From NCBI RefSeq assembly GCF_000745005.1, contig NZ_JQNB01000001.1, forward strand, positions 4,271,501-4,335,500: a stretch of 64,000 nt of DNA. The letters run 5' to 3'. Position 1 is the first letter of the stretch; each line of letters begins with the position of its first letter. Shown here one piece after another: positions 6,553 through 42,913 of the stretch. Below the pieces are notes generated by a model. That model searched no databases, was not told the DNA's origin, and worked only from the letters and a program-made list of their open reading frames with translations. The stretch comes from Luteibacter sp. 9135 (GTDB lineage Bacteria > Pseudomonadota > Gammaproteobacteria > Xanthomonadales > Rhodanobacteraceae). The position numbers were made by a program, and so were the translations under genes.

Positions 6553-7341
6553 ATGGATCTTCGCCTCACCGGTCGCCACGCCCTGGTCTGTGGCGCGTCA
6601 CAGGGTATAGGCCGCGCCACCGCCTTCGAACTGGCGGCACTGGGCGCCAGCGTCACCCTGCTGTCGCGCTCGGCAGACACCCTTGCCGCCCTGGCCCGGG
6701 AACTGCCCGCCGGTCAGCCCGGCCAGTCGCATGAGCCCATCGCCGTGGACATGCTCGATACCGACGCGTTGGCCGCCGCCGTGGCGCGCATCGTCGGCCT
6801 GCATGCCGTGCACGTGGTGGTGAACAACAGCGGGGGCCCGCCGCCGGGGCCAGCCTCGACCGCCACCCCCGACGACTTCCTCACCGCCTTCCGCCAGCAC
6901 CTGCTGGCCGCGCAGGTGGTGACCCGGGCATGCCTGCCGGGTATGCGTGCCGCACGCTACGGGCGCGTGGTCAATGTCATCTCCACGTCGGTCAAGGAAC
7001 CGATCCCCAACCTGGGCGTTTCCAACACGGTGCGTGCCGCCGTGGCGGGCTGGGCCAAGACCCTGTCGTCGGAAGTGGCGCACGAAGGCATCACCGTCAA
7101 CAACGTGCTGCCGGGTTACACGCGCACGCCCCGCCTGGAGGCCCTGGTCGAAGCCAGCTGCAAGGCGGGCCGCAGCCGTGAGGATGTGGAACGCGGCCTG
7201 CTGGCCAGTGTCCCGGCGGCGCGCTTCGGCGATCCGGCCGAGGTGGCGGCGGTGATCGCCTTCCTCGCCAGCCCAGCGGCCGGCTACGTCAACGGCATCA
7301 GCCTGAGCGTCGATGGCGGGCGCACGCGCAGCCTGAACTGA
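6553..7341 (+). CDS. Short-chain dehydrogenase-like protein with non-standard catalytic residues
   Basis: 262 residues with a Rossmann fold. The nucleotide-binding GASQGIGRA lies near residue 14 and NNSGGPPPGP near residue 93. The place normally held by Tyr-x-x-x-Lys reads S-N-T-V-R (LGVSNTVRAAVAGWAKTL), so both the catalytic Tyr and Lys are replaced. The surrounding ISTSVKEPIPNLG motif is typical of a known FabG-like subgroup with this imperfect tetrad, so it is a family feature rather than a local mutation. It stands 8 bp before an aldehyde dehydrogenase and probably forms an operon with it and the RidA-family gene. Its reaction is not known to me. Confidence 0.8.
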   Translation: MDLRLTGRHALVCGASQGIGRATAFELAALGASVTLLSRSADTLAALARELPAGQPGQSHEPIAVDMLDTDALAAAVARIVGLHAVHVVVNNSGGPPPGPASTATPDDFLTAFRQHLLAAQVVTRACLPGMRAARYGRVVNVISTSVKEPIPNLGVSNTVRAAVAGWAKTLSSEVAHEGITVNNVLPGYTRTPRLEALVEASCKAGRSREDVERGLLASVPAARFGDPAEVAAVIAFLASPAAGYVNGISLSVDGGRTRSLN

Positions 7342-28020: not shown

Positions 28021-28121
28021 GCGCCGCACGCCACCGGAAAACCGCCATGGTAGCGGGCCGTACACCCGGGGCATACATCGATCGCCGCAGCATCGGGGCT
28101 CTTTGCTCCGAGGACCAGCCC

Positions 28122-28421
28122 ATGCCCCTTATCCAGCTCCGTATCACCGGCGACCGCGATATCTTCGACGACGTGATGAACGCCATCCATGGCATCGACC
28201 GGGTCGAGCGGGTCGAGGAAATCGACGACCTGATGATGGGCGTTCGGGACGATTCCAGCTCCAGTGAGTTGTCCGACGATGTCTCGTCGCGTACGTACGT
28301 GCTCGAGGTCGAGGTACCGAACGCCAAGGTCGGCGAAGAAGTGCGAAGCGTGGCCGAAGAGACTGCCGGAACGCGCGAGGCCGCGATCGAGTTCGTCGAT
28401 CCGGACGAAAGCGAAATCTGA
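28122..28421 (+). CDS. Small acidic protein of unknown function
   Basis: 99 residues from MPLIQLRITGDRDIFDDVMNAIHGIDRVERVEEIDDLMMG. A beta-alpha-beta start is followed by a Ser/Asp-rich hinge (VRDDSSSSELSDD) and another beta-alpha-beta (YVLEVEVPNAKVGEEVRSVAEETAG), suggesting a ferredoxin-like or ACT-like fold. It is strongly acidic and ends DPDESEI. I do not recognise the family. The start follows GAGGA at the proper distance. Confidence 0.7.
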   Translation: MPLIQLRITGDRDIFDDVMNAIHGIDRVERVEEIDDLMMGVRDDSSSSELSDDVSSRTYVLEVEVPNAKVGEEVRSVAEETAGTREAAIEFVDPDESEI

Positions 28422-28428
28422 ACCGACC

Positions 28429-28460
28429 CATGAATGCTGCATGTTCTTGCGGCATTCATG
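28429..28460. repeat. Inverted repeat ahead of the DUF1800 gene
   Basis: CATGAATGC and GCATTCATG are perfect 9-bp inverted arms 14 bp apart. They lie just after the stop codon at 28421 and 62 bp before the DUF1800 start. There is no T tract, so it is either a poor terminator or an operator-like dyad. Confidence 0.45.
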
Positions 28461-28521
28461 CGTAAACCCCCTGAAAGGGTCGCCGTTCTAAGGTGTTGCA
28501 CGCACCGAGAACGGAGGTTCC

Positions 28522-30030
28522 ATGCGATCGCTCGCTATCGCTACCCTGCTGGCCCTGACCGCCCTGCCCGCCGCCGCGCGGGATGCGCCGCTTTCCAGAG
28601 ACGACGTGGCGTGGCTGAATCGCGTCACCTTCGGCGTGGATTCGGCCACCGTGGCGCGCTACCGCGAACTGGGCAGGCGCCGTTTCCTCGACGAACAATT
28701 GCACCCCACGTCCCAAGGCCTGCCTGAGGCGGTACGTGCGCAAATCGCCGCCTATGACGTGATGAAGGCACCGCTACCCCTGCGCATGGCGCAGCTGCGC
28801 CAGCGTTACCAGTACATCAAGGCGATGCCCGACGGCGACGCCAAGACGGAAGCGAAAAAGGCGGTGCAGAAGGAAGGCAGCCAGTACGCCGAGCAGGCGC
28901 AGGCGATCGAACTGCTGCGCGCGGTGTACGACGAGAACCAGCTACGCGAACAGATGGTCTGGTTCTGGCTGAACCACTTCAGCGTGTTCCAGGCCAAGGA
29001 CCGCGTGCGCTGGCTGGTGGCCAGCTACGAAGAAGACACCATCCGCCCGCATGCGCTCGGCAAGTTCCGCGACCTGGTCATGGCCACGCTGCGCAGCCCG
29101 GCCATGCTGGAATACCTGGACAACGCACAGAACGCGCGCGACAGGATCAACGAGAACTACGCGCGCGAACTGATGGAACTGCATACGCTGGGCGTAGGCT
29201 CCGGCTACACGCAGGACGATGTGCAGAACCTGGCCCACGTGCTCACCGGCGTGGGCATCGACAACGACGGGCAGCCGCGGAAGATCCGCCCGGCTTGGCA
29301 GGCGTACTACGTCAAGGACGGCCTGTTCGAATTCAACCCGAACCGCCACGATTTCAGCGACCAGCATTTGCTCGGGCAGACCCTGGCAGGCGGCGGCATG
29401 GACGAGGTGGAGAAAGCGGTCGACCTGATCGTCAGCCAGCCGGCATGCGCGACGTTCGTGTCCACCAAGCTGGCCAAGTACTTCGTCTCAGACAACCCGC
29501 CGCCGTCACTGGTCGCGGCCATGGCCAGGACCTTCCACCGTACCGACGGCGACATCTCGGCGGTAATGCAGACGATGCTCGAATCGAAGGAGTTCACCGC
29601 CTCGCTGGGCAAGCGCTACAAGGACCCGACCCAGTTCCTGGTGTCGACCATGCGGCTGGCCTACGACGGCAAACCCGTGAGCAATCCCCGCCCGCTGGTG
29701 AACTGGATCAACCAGCTCGGCCAGGCGCCGTTCGGCCGTATCACGCCTGACGGCTGGCCCACCGCCGATACCGAGTGGTCCAGTTCCGGCCAGGTGGCCA
29801 AGCGCTTCGAGATAGCCCGCTCCATCGGTAGCGGCGCCAACCACCTGTTCGATGTGGACGACAGCGGCAAGGTGCAGGGCGGTGGTTTTCCGCAGCTGAC
29901 CACGCCCACCTACTACGCCACCATCGAGCCGTGGCTGAGCCCGAAGACGCGCGACGCGCTGGCCCAGGCCACGTCGCAACAGGAATGGAACACCTTCCTG
30001 CTGTCCTCCCCCGACTTCAATTACCACTGA
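28522..30030 (+). CDS. DUF1800 exported protein
   Basis: 502 residues with a signal peptide (MRSLAIATLLALTALPAAARD). The DUF1800 family is clear from AWLNRVTFGVDSATVARYRELGRRRFLDEQL, MVWFWLNHFSVF, NYARELMELHTLGVGSGYTQDDVQNLAHVLTG, and the RHDF and GQA segments further on. It is always found next to DUF1501, as here (8 bp apart). The pair is thought to be exported; its function is unknown. A good ribosome binding site (GGAGG) precedes the ATG. Confidence 0.9.
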   Translation: MRSLAIATLLALTALPAAARDAPLSRDDVAWLNRVTFGVDSATVARYRELGRRRFLDEQLHPTSQGLPEAVRAQIAAYDVMKAPLPLRMAQLRQRYQYIKAMPDGDAKTEAKKAVQKEGSQYAEQAQAIELLRAVYDENQLREQMVWFWLNHFSVFQAKDRVRWLVASYEEDTIRPHALGKFRDLVMATLRSPAMLEYLDNAQNARDRINENYARELMELHTLGVGSGYTQDDVQNLAHVLTGVGIDNDGQPRKIRPAWQAYYVKDGLFEFNPNRHDFSDQHLLGQTLAGGGMDEVEKAVDLIVSQPACATFVSTKLAKYFVSDNPPPSLVAAMARTFHRTDGDISAVMQTMLESKEFTASLGKRYKDPTQFLVSTMRLAYDGKPVSNPRPLVNWINQLGQAPFGRITPDGWPTADTEWSSSGQVAKRFEIARSIGSGANHLFDVDDSGKVQGGGFPQLTTPTYYATIEPWLSPKTRDALAQATSQQEWNTFLLSSPDFNYH

Positions 30031-30038
30031 GGCTTCCC

Positions 30039-31229
30039 ATGGATCGCCGCCAGTTCCTGCTCACCCTCGCCGCCACCGTGCCCGCACTGACCCTGGGCGG
30101 ACAGGTATTCGCCGCGCCCGCCGGCTCACCACGCTTCCTGCTGGTGTTCCTGCGTGGCGGCTACGACGCCAACAACCTGCTGGTGCCTTATTCCAGCGAT
30201 TTCTACTACGAATCGCGCAAGAACATCGCGCTGGCCCGACCCACGCCCGGCGATCCGAAATCGGTGCGCGTCCTGGATGAAAACTGGGGCCTGGCACCGG
30301 CGGTGGCCGCCAGCATGGGCCCGCTGTGGGACAAACGGCAGCTGGCCTTCGTCCCCTTTGCGGGCACGGACGACCTCTCGCGCAGCCACTTCGAGACCCA
30401 GGACAACATCGAGGTCGGCGCCTCCGGCAACAGCCGCGACTACGGCTCGGGCTTCATGGGCCGGCTATCGTCGGTATTGCGCGGCGTGCCGCCGATCGCC
30501 TTCACCGACGCGCTGCCGCTGACGTTCCGCGGTGCGGGCGATGTGCCCAACATCTCGCTGAAAGGCGGCGAAAAGGCTGTGTTCGATGACCGGCAGTCGA
30601 AGATCCTTGCCGACATGTACCAGGGCACCACGCTACAGGCCGCGGCCACCGACGGCCTGCAACTGCGCCAGCAGGTCGCGAAGGATCTGCAGACCGAGAT
30701 GGTTGCCGCCAGCCGCGGGGCGGTGAACGCGCGCGGCTTCGCCCAGCAGGGCCAGCGCATGGCTACCCTGATGCGCGATCGCTTCCGCCTCGGTTTCGTC
30801 GATGTGGGCGGCTGGGACACCCACGTCAACCAGGGCGGGGCGGACGGCCAGCTGGCCAGCAACCTCGACAACCTCGGCCAGGGACTGGCGGCGTTCGCCG
30901 ATGGCCTGGGCGAGGCGGAATGGAACAACACCGTCGTGGTGGTCGTGTCCGAATTCGGCCGCACCTTCCGCGAGAACGGCAACAAGGGTACCGACCACGG
31001 TCACGGCACCACGTACTGGGTGATGGGCGGCAAGGTGAACGGCGGTCGCATCGCCGGGCAGCAGGTCGCGGTGGATGCGAAGAACCTGCTACAGAACCGC
31101 GACTACCCGGTGCTCAACAACTATCGCGACCTGCTCGGTGGCCTGATGCAGCGCATGTACGGGTTATCCCAGGCGGACATCAACCGGGTGTTTCCCGAGG
31201 CGAAACCCACCGACCTGCATCTGGTCTAG
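30039..31229 (+). CDS. DUF1501 exported protein with Tat-like signal
   Basis: 396 residues from MDRRQFLLTLAATVPALTLGGQVFAAPAG, whose RRQFL followed by a hydrophobic stretch looks like a twin-arginine signal. The body has the sulfatase/alkaline phosphatase-like DUF1501 motifs: FLRGGYDANNLLVPY, RSHFETQDNIE, VGGWDTHVNQGG and VVSEFGRTFRENGNKGTDHGHGTTYWVMGG, with His and Asp residues placed for metal binding. It is the partner of the DUF1800 gene just upstream. Its stop codon overlaps that of the converging GH15 gene. Confidence 0.9.
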   Translation: MDRRQFLLTLAATVPALTLGGQVFAAPAGSPRFLLVFLRGGYDANNLLVPYSSDFYYESRKNIALARPTPGDPKSVRVLDENWGLAPAVAASMGPLWDKRQLAFVPFAGTDDLSRSHFETQDNIEVGASGNSRDYGSGFMGRLSSVLRGVPPIAFTDALPLTFRGAGDVPNISLKGGEKAVFDDRQSKILADMYQGTTLQAAATDGLQLRQQVAKDLQTEMVAASRGAVNARGFAQQGQRMATLMRDRFRLGFVDVGGWDTHVNQGGADGQLASNLDNLGQGLAAFADGLGEAEWNNTVVVVVSEFGRTFRENGNKGTDHGHGTTYWVMGGKVNGGRIAGQQVAVDAKNLLQNRDYPVLNNYRDLLGGLMQRMYGLSQADINRVFPEAKPTDLHLV

Positions 31230-33064
31230 GGCTGCCACACCTGCCCGTCGGGATGGCTCAGCTGACGGTCGAGGTAGAACGCGGCGCTGATGAAGGCCAG
31301 ATGCGTCAGCGCTTGAGGGAAGTTGCCTAGCAGTGCGGCACGCAGGCTCAGTTCCTCGGAGAACAGGCCGAGGTGGTTCGCGTAAAGCACGCCGCGCGCC
31401 ATGATCTCGCGCGCCTCGGTCAGGCGACCGGCGCGCGCCAGGCATTCCACATACCAGAACGTGCACGTGGTAAAGGCACCCTCCCCGCCCTCCAGGCCGT
31501 CCTCGTTGCGATAACGGAACATCATGCCGTCGTCGGCCAGCTGGTCGTGGATCGCATCCAGCGTGGCCAGCCAGACCGGATCGGTGGCGGAGACGAAGCG
31601 CACCAGCGGCATCATCAGCAGCGCGGCATCCAGATCCGTACCGCCTTGCGTCTGCACGAAGTAACCGTACTCGGGGTGACGGAAGTTCGTCCAGATGTCG
31701 TCGGCGATGCGGTCGCGCACGGCGGCCCACTCCACCGCCGGACCCGGCAGCGAGCGCTTGCCCGCCAGCCGGACGGCCCGGTCCAGGGCCACCCAGCACA
31801 TCAACCGGGAATGCAGGAAATGCTGCTGGCCGCCGCGGATCTCCCAGATGCCTTCGTCGGGGTCCTGCCAGTGGCGACTGACGTGATCGACCATGCGCAC
31901 CACGTGCAGCCAGCCGGTGTGGCTGATCGCGCGGCCGTACTTGTTGGCCAGGTACAGGCTGTCCATCAACTCGCCGAAGATATCCAGCTGGGTCTGCGTG
32001 CGCGCCCCGTTTCCGATACGCACGGGGCGTGACCCGGCGTAGCCGGCCAGGTGGTCCAGCGTGTCTTCCTCCGCTGCTTCGGTGCCGTCGATGGCATACA
32101 TGATGCGCAGTGCGGTGTCCTCGTCCAGGTCCATCAGCCTGGCTTCCGTCCAGCGACGGAAGTGCTCCGCTTCGTCGATGTAGCCCAGGCGCATGAACGC
32201 GTACACCGTGAACGAGGCATCGCGTATCCAGGTGGCGCGATAATCCCAGTTGCGCCCTTGCCCGGTAGCCTCGGGCAGGCCGAAGGTCGCGGCGGCGGCC
32301 ACCGAACCATGCGTATGCGAGGTGAGCAGTTTCAGCACCAGCGCGGAGCGCTCGACACGCTCGCGCCAGCGACCGCGATAGGTCGACCGACGCGTCCAGC
32401 GGCGCCAGGCCTCGGCGGTATCCTCGCAGGCGGCACGGCACTCCGTTTCGTCGGGCGGATCGTGCGCCTCGTCGCCGAGGGTGAACCACACTTCCTCGCC
32501 GGGGTTGAGTTCGAACTCGGCGTGCGCGGCGCCCTCGCCCTCCTCGATCATCAGCGGCACCTTCGACGCCAGGCGCAGGGACTGCGGCCCGTCGTGGAAG
32601 ACCACGCTGTCGCCGTACTCCTCCACCGCCGGTACACGCCGTGCGTAATCCAGCCGCGGGCGGCAGCGCACGCGGATACGCACCCTGCCCCGCGGCACGC
32701 GGATGCATCGCATCACGCAGGCGGCCACGCGCGGCCGCGTCTCGGGGTGGGGCATGAAATCGGTGAGTTCGACGCTGCCCGCTTCGCTCATCCAGCGAGT
32801 AATGAGCACGTTGGTCTCGGGCACGTAGAGCTGCATGGTGCTCGCATCGACCAGGTCCGGCGTCACCGTGAACTCTCCACCCTTGTCCGGATCGAGCAAA
32901 CCGGCGAACACGGTGGGGCTGTCCATGTGCGGCCAGCACATGAAATCGATGGTGCCGTCGCTGGCGACCAGTGCCGTGGTGTCGAGGTTGCCGACGATGC
33001 CGTGCTCACCGATGGTGCGGCCGGGCACGGGATTGGGCTGCGGTGTTTTCGAGGGCTTGGACAT
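31226..33064 (-). CDS. Glycoside hydrolase family 15 protein (glucoamylase/trehalase-like)
   Basis: 612 residues from MSKPSKTPQPNPVPGRTIGEHGIVGNLDTTALVASDGTIDFMCWP (ATG at 33064). The N-terminal beta-sandwich (about residues 15-230) is followed by an (alpha/alpha)6 barrel. Active-site stretches are GRNWDYRATWIRDASFTVYAF with the WIRD motif and PDEGIWEIRGGQQHFLHSRLM, whose Glu is the expected general acid. Bacterial relatives act on alpha-glucans or trehalose. No signal peptide is seen, so it is probably cytoplasmic. The frame stays open far upstream, antisense to the DUF5916 gene, which is not coding. Confidence 0.93.
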   Translation of the reverse strand: MSKPSKTPQPNPVPGRTIGEHGIVGNLDTTALVASDGTIDFMCWPHMDSPTVFAGLLDPDKGGEFTVTPDLVDASTMQLYVPETNVLITRWMSEAGSVELTDFMPHPETRPRVAACVMRCIRVPRGRVRIRVRCRPRLDYARRVPAVEEYGDSVVFHDGPQSLRLASKVPLMIEEGEGAAHAEFELNPGEEVWFTLGDEAHDPPDETECRAACEDTAEAWRRWTRRSTYRGRWRERVERSALVLKLLTSHTHGSVAAAATFGLPEATGQGRNWDYRATWIRDASFTVYAFMRLGYIDEAEHFRRWTEARLMDLDEDTALRIMYAIDGTEAAEEDTLDHLAGYAGSRPVRIGNGARTQTQLDIFGELMDSLYLANKYGRAISHTGWLHVVRMVDHVSRHWQDPDEGIWEIRGGQQHFLHSRLMCWVALDRAVRLAGKRSLPGPAVEWAAVRDRIADDIWTNFRHPEYGYFVQTQGGTDLDAALLMMPLVRFVSATDPVWLATLDAIHDQLADDGMMFRYRNEDGLEGGEGAFTTCTFWYVECLARAGRLTEAREIMARGVLYANHLGLFSEELSLRAALLGNFPQALTHLAFISAAFYLDRQLSHPDGQVWQP

Positions 33065-33111
33065 GGCTAACCCATGCCACAGCGCATGTGAAGATGAAGC
33101 GGTAGGGCCGC

Positions 33112-35340
33112 TCAGAACTCCATACGGTAGGCCACCTTGACCAGGCCTTCCTGCACGTCCTTCAGGGAGAAACTGCGCCGGAACTGGGATTGAACATCGT
33201 CGTCGACGTCGTCGGTGTAGCCACCGCGGTTGTAGACCACATAGAGGTTGGACAAGGGCGCTATTTCGTAGCGGTAGCGGATCTGGAAGCCCAGGTTGGC
33301 CACACCCAGGCCGTCGATCGGCTGGTCGGTATCGACCGCGGCGCCCGAGGGCGTGATCTCGAGACGGCGACGCAGCGTGGCGCCCACGGCGAGGGTCTGC
33401 ATCTTCACCCGCAGTTCCTGCTTGTTGCCCAGGTTCCAGTTGAGCCCGCCGTCCAGGCCCACCGTGCGTCCGTCGTAGGCGCCCACCAGGTTGTCGTGCT
33501 GCCAGATCAGCCAGTTCGGGTCCCATTCGTAGCTGGCCCCGGCAAACACACTGAAGGCGTCGGTGATGAAATAGGTAGGCGTGAACTTGAAGTAGCCGCC
33601 CAAGCGGTGGTAACCGGTGAGCGCGTTGCCGCCGATGAAACCCTCGGCTTCCCAGGCCCAGCGGCCGACGCGCGGATGCGTACGGTCGTAGCTGAGCTTG
33701 GCCGTGGGCGGCGTGCGCTGCTTGTTGCCGCCGCGCGTGAGCAGGTCGTCGTAGGCCGCCGTGAGGGCGTCCAGCCGCCACATCTCCTGACCGCCGTCGC
33801 GCCGCTGGCTGTTCCGCTGGACACGGAAGCGACGGCGCACGATGAGGCCCTCGGTGTTGGTCTGCGCCGACACGCGATACCGCCACACATGCGATGCGTA
33901 GGCCGAGTCGGCCGGCAGGTCGGTTTCGCGCTGCCGCACCTCCCAGTGCAGGTAGCGCATATCGTTGCGCGGCAGGTAGCCGAAGTCGTCGATGTCCAGC
34001 CGCCGGCCGAAGTACATGCCCAGCCACTGCTGGCTCCACACGTCGCTCATTTCCCAGAACGCGATGCCGGTGGCACCCAGCCCGGCGCTGTCGTTGCGTG
34101 GCTGGTCGATCTTGCTACCCACCACGTTGCTGGTGAGGGTGAAGCTCTCGTTGGGCTGCCAGCGGTGATCCAGGCCCAGCACATTGGCGTCGCGGTCCAG
34201 GTAGGGATGGTTCACCCGCGTGGCCAGCAGGCCGAAGGATTGCGTGCCGGCGTTCTGCAACAGCCGGAACGCGCCGAACGTGCGGCCGTCGTCGCCTTTC
34301 TCTTGCGCCGTGAGGATGCCGTAGCTGGTCGAGCCGACGCTGCCGTTGACCTTCACCGCCGCCGCGATGTCGGCGGCGCCGTGGCCGTCGTCCGCCGCGC
34401 CGCCGACGCGCCGCGTGTAGAGCAGTTGCGAATCGTCGTCGAGCAGGCTGAAGTCGAAGATGCCCTGGCTTTCGGTAAAGAAGGGGCGCTTGTCGGTGAA
34501 GAAGGTTTCCTGCGGCGAAAAGTTCACCACCAGGTCGTCGCTTTCCACCTGGCCGAAATCCGGGTTGATCGTGGCGGTGAGCTGGGTTTGCCCGTTCGGT
34601 TTCCAGAGGATGTCCGCGCCCTGTTCGAACGACGTGCTGCCGTGCGCGCGATCCACCTTGCCGACGAGATAGGGTGTCACGGCCACCAGCGACTGCGAGT
34701 ACGCCGGCACCTCCACGCGCTCGAAGCGCGAGAGGAAACGCCCGCGATCGAAGGCGACCGCCGGCCACGCCATCCGTTCGCCGGTGGCGGCGATCACCCG
34801 GTCGATGTACAGGCCGATGGTGCGCGTCTCGCCATCGGCCTTGCGCATGGGTGCGATGTACCAGGGAATCAGCAACTCGACGGAGTAGCCTTCGGCATCC
34901 TCGCTGACCGCGTGGTCCCAGCGACCGTCCCAGTCATAGCTGAAGTCGGATTCGTTGGTGATGACCTCGTCGGCCACGCCGCCCATGGACTTCACCTCGA
35001 AGTCGTAGCCGACGCGTCCATCCGCATCGAAGTCCACCATGACGTTGATCCGATCGACCATGGCGTCTTCGTCGCGGCGGGTCTGTTGCCGCGAGCGAGG
35101 CACGTCGGCCGACTGGGTGACGCGGATGGCCACGGCCAGCCCTTTCGGCGTGGACATCACCCAGGCCTCGGTCGGCTGGCTGCCGGGCTTGCCGGTCATG
35201 GGCTGGGTGTCGCGAAAATCCGCGATGCGCCGCGCGCTCGCCCACTCGGCGGGGTCGATGTGGCCATCGATGACCACCTCGGCCCGGGCGACCGCCGAAA
35301 CGAGGAAAAGCACGGCGAACAGGGCGAGGCGACGATGCAT
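33112..35340 (-). CDS. DUF5916 outer-membrane protein with N-terminal CBM9-like domain
   Basis: 742 residues from MHRRLALFAVLFLVSAVARAE, a signal peptide. Residues about 22-210 form a carbohydrate-binding module 9-like domain (VVIDGHIDPAEWASARRIADF..., VMVDFDADGRVGYDFEVK). The rest is the DUF5916 beta-barrel-like part: INPDFGQVESDDLVVNFSPQETFFTDKRPFFTE is diagnostic, and the C-terminus ends in an aromatic residue (KVAYRMEF), as in outer-membrane barrels. It may bind or import oligosaccharides. Convergence of function with the downstream GH15 gene is possible but not shown. Confidence 0.87.
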   Translation of the reverse strand: MHRRLALFAVLFLVSAVARAEVVIDGHIDPAEWASARRIADFRDTQPMTGKPGSQPTEAWVMSTPKGLAVAIRVTQSADVPRSRQQTRRDEDAMVDRINVMVDFDADGRVGYDFEVKSMGGVADEVITNESDFSYDWDGRWDHAVSEDAEGYSVELLIPWYIAPMRKADGETRTIGLYIDRVIAATGERMAWPAVAFDRGRFLSRFERVEVPAYSQSLVAVTPYLVGKVDRAHGSTSFEQGADILWKPNGQTQLTATINPDFGQVESDDLVVNFSPQETFFTDKRPFFTESQGIFDFSLLDDDSQLLYTRRVGGAADDGHGAADIAAAVKVNGSVGSTSYGILTAQEKGDDGRTFGAFRLLQNAGTQSFGLLATRVNHPYLDRDANVLGLDHRWQPNESFTLTSNVVGSKIDQPRNDSAGLGATGIAFWEMSDVWSQQWLGMYFGRRLDIDDFGYLPRNDMRYLHWEVRQRETDLPADSAYASHVWRYRVSAQTNTEGLIVRRRFRVQRNSQRRDGGQEMWRLDALTAAYDDLLTRGGNKQRTPPTAKLSYDRTHPRVGRWAWEAEGFIGGNALTGYHRLGGYFKFTPTYFITDAFSVFAGASYEWDPNWLIWQHDNLVGAYDGRTVGLDGGLNWNLGNKQELRVKMQTLAVGATLRRRLEITPSGAAVDTDQPIDGLGVANLGFQIRYRYEIAPLSNLYVVYNRGGYTDDVDDDVQSQFRRSFSLKDVQEGLVKVAYRMEF

Positions 35341-35506
35341 GGGGGGTCCGGAGGATCGTGACATTCTGCGGATAGGATGCCTGGCGATCGCAAAAGGTTG
35401 GGCATGACTATCGGCCTATGTGCGGCGATGTCCGACCTGGGAGGCGCCCCGAAGGCGGCGTGCTCTGCTACTTTCACGGCGTTCGCCATTTTCTTCCGGG
35501 GGTTTC

Positions 35507-36430
35507 ATGCTCGCTCGTACCTGCCTCGCGCTCGCCCTTGCCTGCGCCCTCCCCGCTTCCGCGATGGCCGCCGACGCGCCTGCCAAGCCGCACACACCGA
35601 CACCGAAGGAACTGCTCGCCAAGGCAGCTCCGGCCGAATGGCGCACGCCGGATCCGCAGAACCTGGTCTACATGGACCTGCCGCAGGGCCGCGTGGTGAT
35701 CGAACTGGCACCGGACTGGTCGCCGCTGCATGCGGCCAATATCCGCACGCTGATCCGCGAGCACTATTTCGACGGCACCCAGGTGATCCGCGTCCAGGAC
35801 AATTTCGTCACCCAATGGGGCGACCCCGACGGCGACGACAAGAAGAAAGCGAAATCTCTCGGCACGGCGAAGGAGACCCTGCCGCCGGAGTTCACGCGCA
35901 AGGGCGGCAAGCCCTACCCGTTCACCCGGTTGCCGGATGGCGACGTGTACGCCCCCGAGGTCGGTTTCTCCGACGGTTTCCCCGTGGCCCGCGACAAGGG
36001 CGAGGCATGGATCGCACACTGCTACGGCACCGTGGGCGTGGCCCGCGACATCGGCGCGGACACCGGCAACGGCAGCTCGCTCTACGCCATCATCGGCCAA
36101 GCCCCGCGCAACCTGGACCGCAATCTCGCGGTGGCCGGCAAGGTCATCAAGGGCATGGACCTGCTCGCCGCGTACCCACGCGGCGGCGAGCCGATGGGCT
36201 TCTACGACAAGCCCGAACAGCGGGTCACGATCAAGCAAGTGCGCCTTGCTGCCGATGTACCAGTAGCGGAGCGCACTTCAATCCAGGTCCTGCGGACCGA
36301 CAGCACGACGTTCGCCGCGCTCGTCGAGGCCAAGCGCAACCGCAAGGACGCTTTCTACACCCGTCCGGCCGGGAAGATCGACCTCTGCAACATCGGTGTG
36401 CCGTCGCGGAATCCGTCAGGCAAGCCATGA
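35507..36430 (+). CDS. Exported cyclophilin-type peptidyl-prolyl isomerase
   Basis: 307 residues with a signal peptide (MLARTCLALALACALPASAMAAD). The cyclophilin domain begins at YMDLPQGRVVIELAPDWSPLHAANIRTLIREHYFDGTQVIRVQDNFVTQWGDP and includes GTVGVARD and GNGSSLYAIIGQAPRNLDRNLAVAGKVIKGMDLL. Residues about 245-307 form an extra C-terminal part (RTDSTTFAALVEAKRNRKDAFYTRPAGKIDLCNIGVP). This same 3' region occurs again, frameshifted, at about 37150-37463, so the gene's end has been duplicated around the ubiquitin-like gene. Confidence 0.92.
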   Translation: MLARTCLALALACALPASAMAADAPAKPHTPTPKELLAKAAPAEWRTPDPQNLVYMDLPQGRVVIELAPDWSPLHAANIRTLIREHYFDGTQVIRVQDNFVTQWGDPDGDDKKKAKSLGTAKETLPPEFTRKGGKPYPFTRLPDGDVYAPEVGFSDGFPVARDKGEAWIAHCYGTVGVARDIGADTGNGSSLYAIIGQAPRNLDRNLAVAGKVIKGMDLLAAYPRGGEPMGFYDKPEQRVTIKQVRLAADVPVAERTSIQVLRTDSTTFAALVEAKRNRKDAFYTRPAGKIDLCNIGVPSRNPSGKP

Positions 36431-36507
36431 CCGATACCATCGAAGACGGCGGCCACTACCTAATAAAGACCTTCTCCCGGCTCGACCTGGCGAAACCCAA
36501 GGACTAA
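36427..36507 (+). CDS. Possible 26-residue ORF overlapping the cyclophilin stop codon
   Basis: An ATGA overlap joins the cyclophilin stop to a short frame encoding MTDTIEDGGHYLIKTFSR and eight more residues (LDLAKPKD). It has no known domain. It could be translated by coupling, or be leftover sequence at the edge of the low-GC segment that follows. I lean to a remnant. Confidence 0.25.
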   Translation: MTDTIEDGGHYLIKTFSRLDLAKPKD

Positions 36508-36683
36508 CGCAAGTCGAATCAAGCCTTTGGAAATCTCCTGCCGTGCCACCTGGGTGATTTTGAGGCGATTAATCGGCGCGCGACTAGATTTGGGTTGCTT
36601 TCGGCCATGTTGCCATGGTGGTTTTCGTGTCCTTTAGCAGCCGACCGTCCGCGGCTTTGATCGGATAGGAAAAAGGGAATGTC
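36508..36683. other. Low-GC non-coding stretch upstream of the ubiquitin-like gene
   Basis: These 176 bp are much poorer in G+C than the surroundings. A candidate promoter is TTGAGG (36560-36565), 19 bp, TAGATT (36585-36590); the spacer contains the perfect palindrome CGATTAATCG (36566-36575). The minus strand has open frames, but their sequence has no recognisable features. The ribosome binding site AAGGGA (36673-36678) ends 5 bp before the ATG at 36684. Confidence 0.4.
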
Positions 36684-36923
36684 ATGCAGATTTTCATCAA
36701 CATGCTGAGCGGAAAACAACTCGCTTTGGAAGTAGAACCAGACACGACCGTCGACGAAGTCAAATCCAAAATCGCTGATAAGGAAGGCCTACCGACGGAT
36801 CGACAGCGCCTGTTGTTACCGGGCGGAAAAGGAGTGCTCGAAGATGGAAAAACTCTCTCTTCTTATGGCATAGGATTGGATGCCAAGATCAACCTTGACG
36901 TCAAACGAAGCCGAGAGAGCTGA
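36684..36923 (+). CDS. Ubiquitin-like protein without C-terminal Gly-Gly
   Basis: 79 residues that align end to end with eukaryotic ubiquitin. MQIF, GK, LEVEP, VK-K-I, DKEG, QRL, LEDG, TLS-Y-I and the final L-V segment match; I count about 38 identities in 76 positions by eye, with one 2-residue insertion (GGKG). Leu8, Lys11, Lys27, Lys29, Lys33 and the Lys48 position are kept, position 44 is Leu for Ile, Lys6 is Asn and Lys63 lacks a clear match. The tail ends KRSRES instead of LRLRGG, so ordinary conjugation through Gly76 is not possible. No E1, E2 or JAB peptidase gene is nearby. Its 240 bp are about 49% G+C by hand count, well below its neighbours, which suggests horizontal transfer. There is no signal peptide. 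Confidence 0.9.
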   Translation: MQIFINMLSGKQLALEVEPDTTVDEVKSKIADKEGLPTDRQRLLLPGGKGVLEDGKTLSSYGIGLDAKINLDVKRSRES

Positions 36924-37149
36924 CTTTGCGCGAATGCCCTCGTTTGCTATTTGCAGAATCAATGCTCGCCGTGGGCGGTTTTGCAGGGCCGCATATTGCA
37001 GGGCTGATCACATAGGTTAACGACCTGCCTGCCGCCGTCGGCCTGTTTGAAGTCGCGACAATCTAACTATTAGGCAGGTTTGCTTGTACGCACCGCGGGT
37101 CTCCTTACCGGTATTTTGTTTCGAGACCTCGGTGTGTTTGGAGGAGTGC
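36924..37149. other. Low-GC non-coding stretch after the ubiquitin-like gene
   Basis: No convincing gene is visible. The stretch has AT-rich words (CGTTTGCTATTTGCAGAATC, GCAGGGC twice) unlike the host average. It ends where similarity to the cyclophilin gene begins. No inverted terminal repeats, transposase fragment or tRNA end could be found by eye. Confidence 0.4.
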
Positions 37150-37463
37150 ATGGCCGATCGTCAGATTGCCCTGCGTGTCGCTAAGGCACGGCAGGAGACG
37201 ATCTACCCGCGTGGCGGCGAACCCATCGGCTTCGACGACAAGCCCGTGCAGTGCGTGACGGGCAAGAGCGTGCGCGTGGCCTCCGACGTGTCCGAAGCGA
37301 GCACACGCCGATACAGGTGCTGCGGACGGACAGCACCACTTTCGCCGCGCTGATCGAGGCCAAGCGCCATCGCAAGGACGATTTCTATACGCGACCAGCG
37401 GGGAAGATCGACCTGTGCAACATCAGCGTGCCGGTGCGGGATCCTTCGCAGAAGACGCCGTAG
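37150..37463 (+). pseudogene. Frameshifted partial copy of the cyclophilin gene 3' end
   Basis: Two overlapping frames together match the C-terminal part of the cyclophilin at 35507-36430. The first gives YPRGGEPIGFDDKPVQCVTG (full gene: YPRGGEPMGFYDKPEQRVTI). After a frameshift near 37290 the second gives IQVLRTDSTTFAALIEAKRH and DDFYTRPAGKIDLCNISVP, nearly the same as the intact protein. Similarity is clear from 37204 and possible from about 37150. The copies differ at many bases, so this is not a recent direct duplication. The 3' end overlaps the end of the opposing DUF3014 gene. Confidence 0.8.
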
Positions 37464-38292
37464 GCGCCTCGGACCCGGACGAGGCCGCGTCCGGCTTGAC
37501 CACTTCCTGCCGCAACGCACGCAGCTTCGCTTTCAGCTTCGCCTCGTTGATCGGCCCCACGCGGATCATGAACCGCTGCCCGGCCGAGAGCTGCTCGATG
37601 GCGGGGTTGGCGTAGAGGTAACCCTCTTTCTCCGGCAGCAGCTGCAGGTTGCCCTGCGGCTCAGGCGCGGCCAGCAGGTCGTCGATCACCTGCACCAGCC
37701 GGTCGTTGAAATAGCCGCCGGTGCCCAGGTCACGATAGGCCTGCTGGAACAGCGGGTAGTTGTGCTTGTACCAGGCGGCCGCGGCCTTGGGGCTGATGCG
37801 GTCGGCGACGTACATGTAGGTCGCGTAGCGCTCCGCATTTTTCTTCGAAGCGACGAAGCTTCCGTCGTCCGACACCACCTGGAAGCGGCCGGCCGGCGTA
37901 TGCAGCGGCAACACGTTCATGCCCACGGTGCGTTTCGGTAGCGCGTCGATGGTCGAGACCATGCGCGAGACGATGGCATCGGACTTGAGCAGGGACTTCA
38001 GAGCATCGTCGTTGGTCAAGGCCAGCAGGCCCGACAGCACCGCATCGTCGCTCTGGTCCAGGCTGGGCAGCGCGGCCGTGGAACCCGTGGCGGGGCCGAT
38101 GGGGTGTTGGGGAAGCGCCGGTTCGTTCAACGCCGTGGACGTCGCGCCAGCAACCGACGACGCAGCCGCGGGAGCGGGCGTGGCGGCGTCGCGCGCCTGT
38201 TTCTCCCGCCAAAAGAACACACCGGCCACCGCAATGATGGCAAGGATCAACACCCCGGCAATCCACTTCGAACCCGACGACTGACTGCTCAA
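37423..38292 (-). CDS. DUF3014 membrane-anchored protein
   Basis: 289 residues. One transmembrane helix (WIAGVLILAIIAVAGVFFW, residues 10-28) is followed by an Ala/Pro/Ser-rich linker and the DUF3014 domain: LPSLDQSDDAVLSGLLALTNDDALKSLLKSDAIVSRMVSTIDALPKR, then ISPKAAAAWYKHNYPLFQQAYRDLGTGGYFNDRLVQVIDDLLAAPEP. The domain should face the periplasm. Its function is unknown. The C-terminal Ser/Ala-rich tail overlaps the broken cyclophilin copy on the other strand by 41 bp, so the pseudogene's end may be constrained by this gene. Confidence 0.88.
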   Translation of the reverse strand: MSSQSSGSKWIAGVLILAIIAVAGVFFWREKQARDAATPAPAAASSVAGATSTALNEPALPQHPIGPATGSTAALPSLDQSDDAVLSGLLALTNDDALKSLLKSDAIVSRMVSTIDALPKRTVGMNVLPLHTPAGRFQVVSDDGSFVASKKNAERYATYMYVADRISPKAAAAWYKHNYPLFQQAYRDLGTGGYFNDRLVQVIDDLLAAPEPQGNLQLLPEKEGYLYANPAIEQLSAGQRFMIRVGPINEAKLKAKLRALRQEVVKPDAASSGSEAPTASSAKDPAPAR

Positions 38293-38451
38293 TGTACCGC
38301 TCCCACGACAAAATCTGTCCCCATGGGACTACGGATGGGGGCGATGGTTCAAGGTTGCAGGGTGAATCCAGCGGTGGCAACTACACGAGTTACCATGGAA
38401 GGATGCCGGTATTCCACCATTACCGCGGCATCTCACGCTTCACGCTTTCCT

Positions 38452-39351
38452 TCATCGGCCAGGCACGACGGCCGCAGGCTTCAGCGGGGGATATGCCCAG
38501 CGTAGTGCGTAGTGCTCGGAGGCTCGATAAATGGTGTCGTGGTGCTGGTCCGGGCGGGGCACGTACGTCCATGTGAGGCCGGCAGGCGATGCGACGGCCA
38601 GCATGCGATCCAGCTGAGCGACGTGCGGACCGATGTTGTCCTCGTCGGCAGAGGTGAGGAACAGACGCCGCGGCGCGGCGGGCATCGCGGCGAGCAGCGC
38701 AGGTGCCTCGCGCACCAGCGCCGCGTCGTTCCACCAGAGGCTGGGACTGATCGCGATCACCGTGTCGAACAGCGCGGGCTCGCGCAGCAGGCTTTCCACC
38801 GAAAACAGCCCCGCCAGCGATTCGCCGATGATGCCGCGGTGCCCATCCACACGGTAACGTCGGCCGATCTCCGTCACCAACTGCCGTGCGATGAAGGCCC
38901 GGAACGCGGCCGAACCGCCCACGTGTGGGGCGATCTTCTTGTCCTCTGCCACCGTGGTAGGCCCGGTCATGTCGCGACGCCGTTCGGTGTTCTCGATGCC
39001 GACCAGGATCACCGGCCGGATCTCCCCTGCCCGGATGCCTTCGTCGAGGGTGGCAGCCACGTGCGGGAAATCTTCCTGCAACCCGCCATCGGGCATGTAG
39101 AGGACGGGGTAGCGGTCTTTCGACGCGTCGTAGCCGGGAGGCGTGTAAACGTTGATGTGGCGCGTTTCGGCGGGGGCCTTGGCAACCAGCGTAAAGCTGT
39201 CGCTATGCGGAGCCACCTGGGGCGGCTGCACGACGAGCGTGACGTGCGCAACCTGCGTGTCTTGCGCGACCTGCGTGGCCTGCGTGGCCTGCGTTCTCGG
39301 CGCCATGATCGCGAAAATCGTCAAACCCGCGGCGATGACCATCCGTTGCAT
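38452..39351 (-). CDS. Exported esterase of the alpha/beta hydrolase fold (COG2819 type)
   Basis: 299 residues. A signal-like N-terminus (MQRMVIAAGLTIFAIMAPR) is followed by a small repeat region, TQATQATQVAQDTQVAHV, encoded by near-identical 9-bp units. The hydrolase domain has RHINVYTPPGYDASKDRYPVLYMPDGG, VGIENTERRRDMTGP and the nucleophile GIIGESLAGLFSVESL (Ser in GESLAG), with a His near DQHHDTIYRAS. Relatives hydrolyse ferric-siderophore or acyl esters. The substrate is unknown. The gene is monocistronic. Confidence 0.87.
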   Translation of the reverse strand: MQRMVIAAGLTIFAIMAPRTQATQATQVAQDTQVAHVTLVVQPPQVAPHSDSFTLVAKAPAETRHINVYTPPGYDASKDRYPVLYMPDGGLQEDFPHVAATLDEGIRAGEIRPVILVGIENTERRRDMTGPTTVAEDKKIAPHVGGSAAFRAFIARQLVTEIGRRYRVDGHRGIIGESLAGLFSVESLLREPALFDTVIAISPSLWWNDAALVREAPALLAAMPAAPRRLFLTSADEDNIGPHVAQLDRMLAVASPAGLTWTYVPRPDQHHDTIYRASEHYALRWAYPPLKPAAVVPGR

Positions 39352-39460
39352 GCGTGACTTCCCTGGACGTGTCGCACCAGCTTAGCGGCATGGACCCGAC
39401 GAGACCAAGCCTCGCCGGGTTCATACGAGCACCTGCCGCGGCACGTGGCCGCAGCGCCGC

Positions 39461-42400
39461 TTACATGTTGCGGCGGTACTCGCCACCCACGTCGTACAGC
39501 GCGTGGCTGATCTGGCCGAGGGAGTTGTTCTTCACCGCGTCCATCAGCTGCTCGAACACGTTACGCCGGTCGCGCGCTGTCTTCTGCAACGTCACCAGGC
39601 TCTCCGGGGCCAGATCATTGCGCGCCTTGCCGTAGAGCAGCACGTTGTCGATCTGCTGGCCCTTTTCTTCTTCCGTGGAGCGGATCAGCTCGATCTCGGT
39701 GGCGATCTCGCCGCCATGGTCCTTGGGCAGGAAGGTGTTGACACCGATCAGCGGCAGCGAGCCGTCGTGCTTGCGGTGCTCGTAGTACATCGACTCTTCC
39801 TGGATCTTGCCGCGCTGGTACATGGTGTCCATGGCGCCCAGCACGCCGCCGCGCTCGCTGATCGCCTCGAACTCCTTGTACACCGCCTCTTCCACCAGGT
39901 CGGTCAGTTCGTCGACTACGTAGCTGCCCTGCCACGGATTTTCGTTGAAGTTGAGGCCCAGCTCGCGGTTGATGATGAGCTGGATCGCCACGGCGCGACG
40001 CACGCTTTCCTCGGTAGGCGTGGTGATCGCCTCGTCATAGGCATTCGTGTGCAGGCTGTTGCAGTTGTCGAACAACGCGTACAGCGCCTGCAATGTGGTG
40101 CGGATATCGTTGAACTGGATCTCCTGCGCGTGCAGCGATCGGCCGGAGGTCTGGATGTGATACTTCAGCATCTGGCTGCGCGCGGTGGCACCGTAACGAT
40201 CACGCATCGCGCGCGCCCAGATGCGGCGGGCCACGCGGCCGATCACCGTGTATTCCGGGTCCATGCCGTTGGAGAAGAAGAACGACAGGTTGGGTGCGAA
40301 GTCGTCGATCTTCATCCCGCGGGCGAGGTAGTACTCCACGATGGTGAAGCCGTTGGACAGGGTAAAGGCCAGCTGGCTGATCGGGTTGGCGCCGGCTTCG
40401 GCGATGTGATAACCCGAGATCGACACCGAGTAGAAATTGCGCACCTTGTGGTCGACGAAATACTGCTGGATGTCGCCCATCATGCGCAGGGCGAACTCCG
40501 TGCTGAAGATGCAGGTGTTCTGGGCCTGGTCTTCCTTGAGGATGTCCGCCTGCACCGTGCCGCGCACGTTGGCCAGGGTCCAGGCCTTGATGCGCGCATA
40601 GGTCTCTGCATCTACCACCTCTTCGCCGGAAACGCCGAGCAGCGCCAGGCCCAGCCCGTCGTTACCCTCTGGCAGGTCGCCGTGGTACGTCGGGCGGTTG
40701 CCGTCCGGGTACAGGCGCGCGATATGCGCGTTGGCGGCATCCCAGCGTGAGGCGTCCTCGTTGAGGTACTTCTCGATGTTCTGGTCGATCGCGGTGTTCA
40801 TGAACATCGCGAGGATGATCGGCGCGGGTCCGTTGATCGTCATCGACACAGACGTGGATGGCGCCGAGAGGTCGAAGCCCGAATACAGCTTCTTCATGTC
40901 GTCCAGCGTGGCGATGGACACGCCGGAGTTGCCGATCTTGCCGTAGATGTCCGGCCGCGGCGCGGGGTCTTCGCCGTACAGCGTGACCGAATCGAAGGCC
41001 GTGGACAGCCGCGCGGCGGCACCGCCCAGCGACAGGTAATGGAAACGACGGTTGGTGCGTTCCGGCGTGCCCTCGCCCGCGAACATGCGGGTGGGATCCT
41101 CCCCCGCACGACGATACGGGAAGACGCCGCCCGTATAAGGATAGTGACCGGGCAGGTTCTCCCGCATCAGGAACGACAGCAGCTCGCCCCAGTCCTTCGT
41201 CTTCGGCGGCGACACCTTGGGGATCTTCTGGTGGCTGAGCGACTCGCGGTAGTTCTCGACGCGGATCACCTTGTCACGCACCTGGTACTCGTTGAACTCC
41301 GCGGTGACCGCGGCGAAGCGTGACGGCCATTCCCGCAACAGGTGGATGGCCTCGCTGGTGAGTTCGCGCACGGTCTCGTTGTAACGCTGGCGGAGCGTGA
41401 CCAGCGAGCGATCGCCTTCGACGGTGAGTGCAGCATGGTCGTAGAGGTCGAACGCCCGCGGCAGCGCGTCGTCACCGATATCCTTGAGCGATTCGTAATA
41501 GTGCTGCGCCTTGCTCGCCGCCTCGGCCTGCTTCGCGATGCCGTGGTTCACGCCGCGCCCCTGCTCGGCGATTTCCGCGAGGTAACGCACGCGGTTGCCG
41601 GGGATCAGCACCGTGGCGCGTGGCTCGCGCAGGGTGGTATCCACCACGGGTGTCCAGTTCGTGCCCGGCAGCGCCAGCTTCTCGCGCAGCAGCCGGCACA
41701 GGTTGTCGAACATCCAGGTGACGCCCGGGTCGTTGAACTGGCTGGCGATGGTGGGATACACCGGCACGTTCTCATCGGCCATCTGGAAGGCGGTGCGGTT
41801 GCGCTTCCACTGCTTGCGCACGTCGCGCAGGGCGTCTTCGGCGCCGCGCTTGTCGTACTTGTTCAGCACCACCAGCTCGGCGAAATCCAGCATGTCGATC
41901 TTCTCGAGCTGGCTGGCCGCGCCGTATTCGCTGGTCATCACGTAGACCGGGAAATCGACCAGGTCGACGATTTCCGAATCGCTCTGGCCGATGCCGGCGG
42001 TTTCCACGATCACCAGGTCATACGCCTGCGATTTCAGAAAATCGATGCAGTCGTGCAGCACGATGGACGTGGCGGCGTGCTGCCGGCGCGTGGCCATCGA
42101 GCGCATGTAGACGCGCGGACTGCGCAGCGAGTTCATGCGGATGCGATCGCCCAGCAGCGCACCGCCGCTGCGGCGACGCGTGGGATCCACCGCCAGCACG
42201 GCGATGCGCATGTCCGGGAACGCATGCAGGAAACGCAGCAACAGCTCGTCCACGACCGACGACTTGCCCGCGCCACCGGTGCCGGTAAGGCCGAGCACCG
42301 GCGTCTTGCCGCCGGCCAGTTGCCAGGCCTTGCGCACGCGCGCCAGCTCCGCCTCGGGAAGCTGGTCTTCCTCGATGGCGGACAGCATGGCACCGATGGA

Positions 42401-42913
42401 AATCTCGTCGTCCACCGAGGTAGCTTCCGGCGTGGTGACGGTGCGTTCGCGCGTGGCGTTGCGCGTGCGCGTCATCACGTCCTCGATCATCTCGGTGAGG
42501 CCGAGCTTCATGCCGTCATTGGGGTGGTAGATGCGCTCCACGCCATACGCCTGCAGTTCGCGGATCTCCTCCGGCGTGATGGTGCCCCCGCCACCGCCAA
42601 ACACGCGCACATGGCCGGCGCCGCGCTCGCGCAGCATGTCGACCATGTACTTGAAGTACTCCACGTGGCCACCCTGGTACGACGACAGCGCGATGGCATC
42701 GGCGTCTTCCTGCAAGGCGGCGCGCACCACGTCTTCCACCGAGCGGTTGTGGCCCAGGTGGATCACCTCGGCGCCCTGGCTCTGGATGATCCGTCGCATG
42801 ATGTTGATCGCGGCGTCGTGGCCGTCGAACAGGCTGGCCGCCGTGACGAAACGCAGCGGCGTTCCCTCCGCGTCGGTATGGCTGGCGGGGATAGGCTTGG
42901 GCTGCGAGCTCAT
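39461..42913 (-). CDS. icmF: Fused isobutyryl-CoA mutase IcmF (B12 domain, MeaB-like GTPase, mutase)
   Basis: 1150 residues in three parts. The B12-binding domain is at about 20-150 ([21 protein letters not shown], then [13 protein letters not shown] and [14 protein letters not shown]). A MeaB-type G-protein chaperone follows at about 190-420 ([58 protein letters not shown]). The mutase barrel covers the rest ([43 protein letters not shown]). This layout is that of IcmF, which interconverts isobutyryl-CoA and butyryl-CoA, sometimes also pivalyl- or isovaleryl-CoA, rather than of separate methylmalonyl-CoA mutase subunits. It fits with the leucine and isovaleryl-CoA dehydrogenases further on. 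Confidence 0.93.

Follow-up and report, generated by a model that had tools for sequence, protein, structure and literature searches.

A ubiquitin-fold gene without signal peptide or Gly-Gly tail in Luteibacter sp. 9135, very probably horizontally acquired

The ubiquitin-fold gene and the insert around it

Luteibacter sp. 9135 carries a small gene for a protein with the predicted fold of ubiquitin. The gene is located at 36684..36923 on the forward strand of a stretch of 64,000 nucleotides (contig NZ_JQNB01000001.1, positions 4,271,501 to 4,335,500), called the window here. Coordinates refer to this window unless another locus is named; G, L and P numbers are our handles for genomes, loci and protein clusters. 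The product is 79 amino acids long, has no signal peptide and ends in VKRSRES. We regard this as a real and very probably horizontally acquired gene that belongs to a small clade.

An earlier note on this DNA, made from the sequence alone, had described a bacterial protein that resembles ubiquitin and lacks its Gly-Gly tail and a signal peptide. All of this holds up. The protein matches PF00240, the ubiquitin domain family, with 64.5 bits against a curated cut-off of 25.4, and its predicted fold is the beta-grasp fold of ubiquitin. It shares 40 of 76 residues with eukaryotic ubiquitin, relative to which it has a two-residue insertion near position 48. Its sole Gly-Gly is at 47-48, within the fold, and it contains no cysteine. 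An in-frame stop lies six codons upstream of the gene, so no signal peptide precedes Met1. Judged by its own sequence, the protein would be located in the cytoplasm.

The gene sits in an insert of 767 bp (36436..37202) that has no counterpart in the sister genome G018. The alignment of the window with G018 covers 28121-35400 and 35456-36435, the latter being a peptidyl-prolyl isomerase (PPIase) gene. It is then interrupted by the 767-bp gap, resumes at 37203-37459, and continues into a DUF3014 gene. The GC content of the insert is around 0.50-0.56, versus around 0.62-0.73 in the surroundings. At third codon positions (GC3) the ubiquitin gene has 0.53, versus 0.81-0.88 in six neighbouring genes. 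The note had named an assembly contaminant as a way in which its finding could fail. This can be rejected, since the gene is on the single 4.49 Mb contig of the genome, and its flanks are shared with G018, G021 and G014.

The insert contains a perfect inverted repeat of 14 bp, as would be expected of the terminal repeats of a transposon-like cassette (a miniature inverted-repeat transposable element, MITE). The left arm, TCTCCTGCCGTGCC, is at 36534..36547 on the forward strand. The right arm is at 37185..37198 on the reverse strand, 4 bases ahead of a displaced PPIase 3' end. When the region was resampled 2000 times with a first-order Markov model, no resample reached a length of 14, and 8 reached 12. 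Genome-wide there are exactly 2 perfect copies of the 14-mer. With up to one mismatch it is found at 5 places, versus 3 for a reversed control, which leaves the two exact copies as the meaningful ones. No target-site duplication was found outside the repeats (TTTGGAAA precedes the left arm, CGATCTAC follows the right arm), and the cassette occurs at one place in the window genome. The mobile unit is therefore not defined.

The insert also holds the decayed start of an insertion-sequence orfA (37022..37143, reverse strand), presumably of the IS3 type. Stretches in G018 and G020 match it at 72% identity, and within the genus matches to the insert elsewhere are limited to this part. No known RNA family or tRNA was found at the insertion site, or in the window as a whole. 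A terminator scan of the locus gave no signal above chance.

Directly upstream there is an intact cyclophilin-type PPIase gene (35507..36430, forward strand; PF00160, 83.2 bits), which ends 253 bp ahead of the ubiquitin gene. Its N-terminus, MLARTCLALALACALPASAMAA, resembles a signal peptide by eye. On the other side of the insert lies a second, frame-broken copy of the PPIase 3' end (37203..37459, forward strand). This copy is closest to G018 (85%), and is thus probably the displaced end of the native gene. The two copies are 77-79% identical to each other; the tail of the intact one has 80-83% identity to G018, and is closer to other genomes. A tree of the tails places the broken copy in the group that contains G018 (0.872) and the intact copy with G012 (0.731) and G011 (0.826). 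A tree of the 5' part likewise puts the intact copy outside G018. These trees would fit a native gene end that was replaced by incoming DNA. Two changes argue against replacement, and would fit a local duplication. Both copies have a K-to-T change that is present in none of the 16 orthologues read in frame (a set without G021, G011 and G014), and both have a V-to-L change that is also seen in G006 and G012.

The DUF3014 gene (37423..38292, reverse strand) is matched in all 23 genus genomes searched, and serves as a marker for the locus. The five flanking genes scanned (33112-42913) are the cyclophilin, DUF3014, an esterase, DUF5916 and a mutase fusion.

A small and sporadic clade

A search of 5.8 billion proteins yielded eight matches, among them five clusters of the same type as the window protein (P0002-P0006). 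These are 77-97% identical to it, and each is 79 residues long. P0002 has two differences from the window protein and no listed source. A repeat search with the alignment of all six rows gave 11 matches and no additional member of this type.

The earlier note had proposed a tree of bacterial and eukaryotic ubiquitins. Two trees were built on 76 columns, one with 107 ubiquitins and one with a chosen subset of 43. In both, a long branch with 100/100 support separates the six rows, and many of the remaining forks lack resolution. Of the 79 columns, 49 do not vary within the clade. Conservation is found in helix 1 (TTVDEVKS.IAD) and at 51-64 (VLEDGK.LS.YGIG). The Gly-Gly tail is absent from all six members, and all six have Asn in place of Lys6.

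Most eukaryotic receptors read ubiquitin through one surface, the Ile44 patch, which is made up of L8, I44, H68 and V70. In the clade Leu8 is retained. Position 44 reads L,L,S,S,S,S; every member has Asn where ubiquitin has His68, and Val70 corresponds to D,D,T,T,A,A. Because 44, 68 and 70 are replaced across the clade, the receptor surface is gone. The suggestion in the note that the protein could mimic ubiquitin non-covalently is not supported for eukaryotic ubiquitin, with 68 and 70 replaced in 6/6 members and Ser at 44 in four.

The presence of such genes is sporadic. PF00240 matches over the cut-off occur in 9 of 233 genomes of the taxonomic family (10 at E <= 0.001), in 10 of 398 in an order sample and in 2 of 398 in a phylum sample; these samples overlap. 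Within the genus 2 of 23 genomes have a match (E <= 0.001), the window genome and G008. The alignment of the clade, run against a class sample, matched 3 of 369 genomes, with 168.9 bits for the window genome (G000) and 81.1 and 20.7 for the others.

Mobile collections were searched as well. Phage cargo was rejected after no match was found in 50,697 phage records. Plasmid cargo was also rejected, with one distant match (43.7%) among 72,556 plasmid records. In the viral contigs of IMG/VR a broad alignment finds 10 ubiquitin loci, all of them 43-52% identical to the window protein, and the clade alignment finds no match.

The sister genome G008 has a second leaderless ubiquitin (L003/L005; 8338-8565 of L005). 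It is 75 residues long and ends in RLES, with the orthologue of the PPIase gene around 1.5 kb away. It shares with the window protein its genus, its neighbourhood, the lack of a signal peptide and of Gly-Gly, and an end in ES. It differs in being 76% identical to human ubiquitin and in its position, on the far side of DUF3014 as seen from the window site. In free trees it falls outside the clade. A test of one joint clade did not reject it (p-AU 0.555), so no conclusion on a separate origin is drawn. G008 also has a tandem repeat array with units of around 36 bp by eye (L005, around 6840-7150), flanked by its PPIase and DUF3014 genes.

Secreted ubiquitins in bacteria at large

In 84,980 genomes of prokaryote species a scan yielded 399 confirmed stretches; the counts below refer to the best 80. 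A signal peptide was called by a heuristic, namely a hydrophobic stretch plus a small-x-small motif ahead of Met1. By this measure a signal peptide, with its end at Met1, is present in 63 of the 80 loci. In L051, L085, L094, L116 and L117 the hydrophobic stretch is present and the small-x-small rule fails. The protein extends beyond its ubiquitin into further sequence in 66/80, and 4/80 end in Gly-Gly. Three are short and without Gly-Gly, each with a signal peptide. A free-standing ubiquitin that lacks both signal peptide and Gly-Gly was found in none of the 80, 7 of which are cut by the end of a contig. Among the 10 loci from the viral collection, 5 have a signal peptide. Eukaryotic contamination may account for some rows, mainly short contigs from metagenome-assembled genomes whose ubiquitins end in a plain RLRGG.

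Secreted ubiquitins are thus found across many bacterial phyla, with up to 99% identity to human ubiquitin. Many of them (L046-L125, again in many phyla) consist of a signal peptide and ubiquitin fused to long extra domains, some of which resemble autotransporter barrels or IPTL/PEP-CTERM anchors by eye. Such proteins are annotated as 'ubiquitin family protein', for example on a Ruminococcus albus plasmid. Two ubiquitins were scanned with NCBIfam models, none of which was over its cut-off. Searches of CC-licensed PMC papers, preprints excluded, brought up papers on BfUbb, the secreted ubiquitin of Bacteroides fragilis; in the listed titles and abstract openings neither the leaderless clade nor the wide secreted family is described, which does not prove that such work is lacking.

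Seven genomes from the same family as Luteibacter (L002, L007-L011, L013) all have a secreted tandem-repeat protein followed by a secreted ubiquitin; the repeat protein of L007 is slightly below the GloVer repeat cut-off. These ubiquitins are 87-99% identical to the human one and end in LRLRGG (4) or LRL (3). Over 21 pairs the uncorrected pN/pS is 0.055-0.151 at a pS of 0.39-0.83, from which it follows that the genes are resident and constrained, under strong purifying selection: synonymous sites have diverged strongly, and the protein has hardly changed.

One viral-collection locus, L131, is leaderless and free-standing. It has 74 residues, ends in LRLR without Gly-Gly, and is 93% identical to human ubiquitin.

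What the protein may do, and how it compares

Several observations together argue for horizontal transfer. These are the presence in 2/23 genus genomes, the low GC3, the absence of the insert from G018, the insertion-sequence debris and the inverted repeat. A single-domain ubiquitin-fold gene would have entered the lineage in the 767-bp insert, behind the cyclophilin PPIase gene. A divergent PPIase copy would have arrived with it or become linked later, and the native PPIase 3' end would have been left behind as a broken fragment.

The standard route of conjugation is closed to the protein, because Gly-Gly is absent, and no E1 or E2 family is found among the flanking genes scanned. The protein has also lost the Ile44 surface, and its clade conserves the fold, helix 1 and 51-64. 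From this we infer a small non-covalent binder, one that would be expressed and would most likely inhibit or regulate one partner. We put the probability of this reading at roughly 55%. Maintenance of the gene is indicated by the common length of 79 residues in the window protein and five clusters, and by the invariant columns.

Some results weigh against this. A simple sigma-70 scan found 0 promoter-like sites, where 0.4 are expected by chance. Among the genomes searched, a match of the P0001 type is limited to the window genome. And since P0002 has no listed source, that cluster may contain the window's own protein, which leaves four clusters as surely independent.

A rival reading is that the gene is a passenger or relic without function, carried in by mobile DNA and yet to decay. 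One in 23 genus genomes has the window type, there is insertion-sequence debris within the insert, and no promoter-like site was found. Yet at least four further clusters keep the length of 79 residues and the residues specific to the clade, which is hardly expected of a decaying gene. We consider a passenger unlikely, if conceivable.

The neighbouring PPIase leads to another explanation. BfUbb, the secreted ubiquitin of Bacteroides fragilis, reportedly binds a B. fragilis PPIase non-covalently, a precedent for the non-covalent binder inferred above. Excerpts of PMC5705921 state that BfUbb acts against some B. fragilis strains, apparently with no need for an immunity protein, and, in the Discussion, that producers of BSAP-1 have a replaced ortholog of its target. 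Sensitivity to BfUbb is decided by one residue, Tyr119, of a B. fragilis PPIase (second-hand, from an excerpt of PMC12396204). In Luteibacter a ubiquitin could similarly inhibit the PPIase of rivals, with the divergent neighbouring PPIase as a resistant allele that replaced the sensitive native one. The gene does lie 253 bp behind a replacement-like PPIase, with the native 3' end displaced, and the leaderless, Gly-Gly-free ubiquitin of G008 is also close to the orthologous PPIase. The window genome has a sheath gene of the type VI secretion system (T6SS; one family checked), which could provide delivery.

Against this, the ubiquitin is leaderless and the PPIase seemingly has a signal peptide, so that different compartments are expected. 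The protein also lacks the terminal Cys of BfUbb. Tree support for the PPIase replacement is moderate (0.73-0.87), and the shared K-to-T and V-to-L changes would fit a local duplication. Linkage was tested on 102 ubiquitin loci with five queries (the window cyclophilin, and FkpA, SlyD, PpiA and SurA of E. coli K-12). A PPIase was near ubiquitin in G008 (L005) and L126 only, at limited sensitivity, with many short loci and some genomes counted twice. A general linkage of the two genes is rejected on this basis, at 1/101 loci besides that of G008. That one locus, L126, is a viral-collection contig with a secreted ubiquitin that ends in RLRGG, around 2 kb from a PpiA-like gene.

On balance we doubt such antagonism. 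More doubtful still is the specific form in which the leaderless ubiquitin binds the cyclophilin PPIase, and travels as a toxin with a divergent allele that spares its producer. Should it hold, antagonism of the BfUbb kind would reach into Pseudomonadota, with target replacement in place of an immunity protein.

It is very unlikely that the protein is an effector that mimics ubiquitin inside the cells of amoebae, fungi or plants. The ubiquitin fold, the eukaryote-like sequence and the T6SS sheath gene might suggest one, but the residues at 44, 68 and 70 have been lost as described, and there is neither a signal peptide nor Gly-Gly.

It is extremely improbable that the protein is processed or conjugated by the ThiF and Prok-JAB pair of the genome (E1/JAB-like enzymes), given that these belong to a DncV-like operon of a cyclic oligonucleotide-based antiphage signaling system (CBASS) 1.39 Mb away and that the only Gly-Gly of the protein is inside its fold. 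ThiF occurs at three places in the genome and Prok-JAB at one; the pair is at 2.914 Mb, in a type II CBASS operon. This operon (L151, 2928-7388; around 2.911-2.915 Mb of G000) encodes a patatin, a DncV-like synthase that ends in Gly, a ThiF/E2-like protein and a JAB protein. No link between it and the ubiquitin gene was seen. The PF00179 profile had no match in the window genome, but its control was silent too.

Of the known systems, Bil systems are bacterial and ubiquitin-like, with the gene of the ubiquitin-like protein in an operon with E1, E2 and JAB. The window protein is likewise a bacterial ubiquitin-like protein. Unlike in Bil systems, none of the five flanking genes scanned encodes E1, E2 or JAB, which bears out the observation of the earlier note that no such operon is beside the gene.

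The note had offered BfUbb as the closest comparison. This is too narrow a choice, given the secreted ubiquitins in many phyla and the close relatives P0002-P0006. Both proteins are bacterial members of the ubiquitin family, thought to be horizontally acquired, restricted to certain strains and without Gly-Gly (for BfUbb, excerpts of PMC3352274 and PMC5705921). BfUbb ends in Cys, according to an excerpt of PMC3352274. The window protein has no Cys and no signal peptide, and the two are 53% identical. BfUbb is not among the PDB matches listed for the window protein (the best 50-60), from which nothing is concluded.

Ubiquitin is usually called eukaryotic, but a near-identical secreted domain is seen in many bacteria. 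These secreted proteins are, like the window protein, bacterial members of PF00240. They differ from it in having a signal peptide ahead of the ubiquitin, and mostly a further domain. With eukaryotic ubiquitin the window protein shares the fold, and not the Gly-Gly or the Ile44 patch. This raises the question of what role there is for a ubiquitin that does not serve as a tag and is not recognised as ubiquitin. The branch in the window is no longer secreted and lacks both the tail for conjugation and the patch for recognition, yet it retains the fold and, across its six sequences, 49 of 79 positions.
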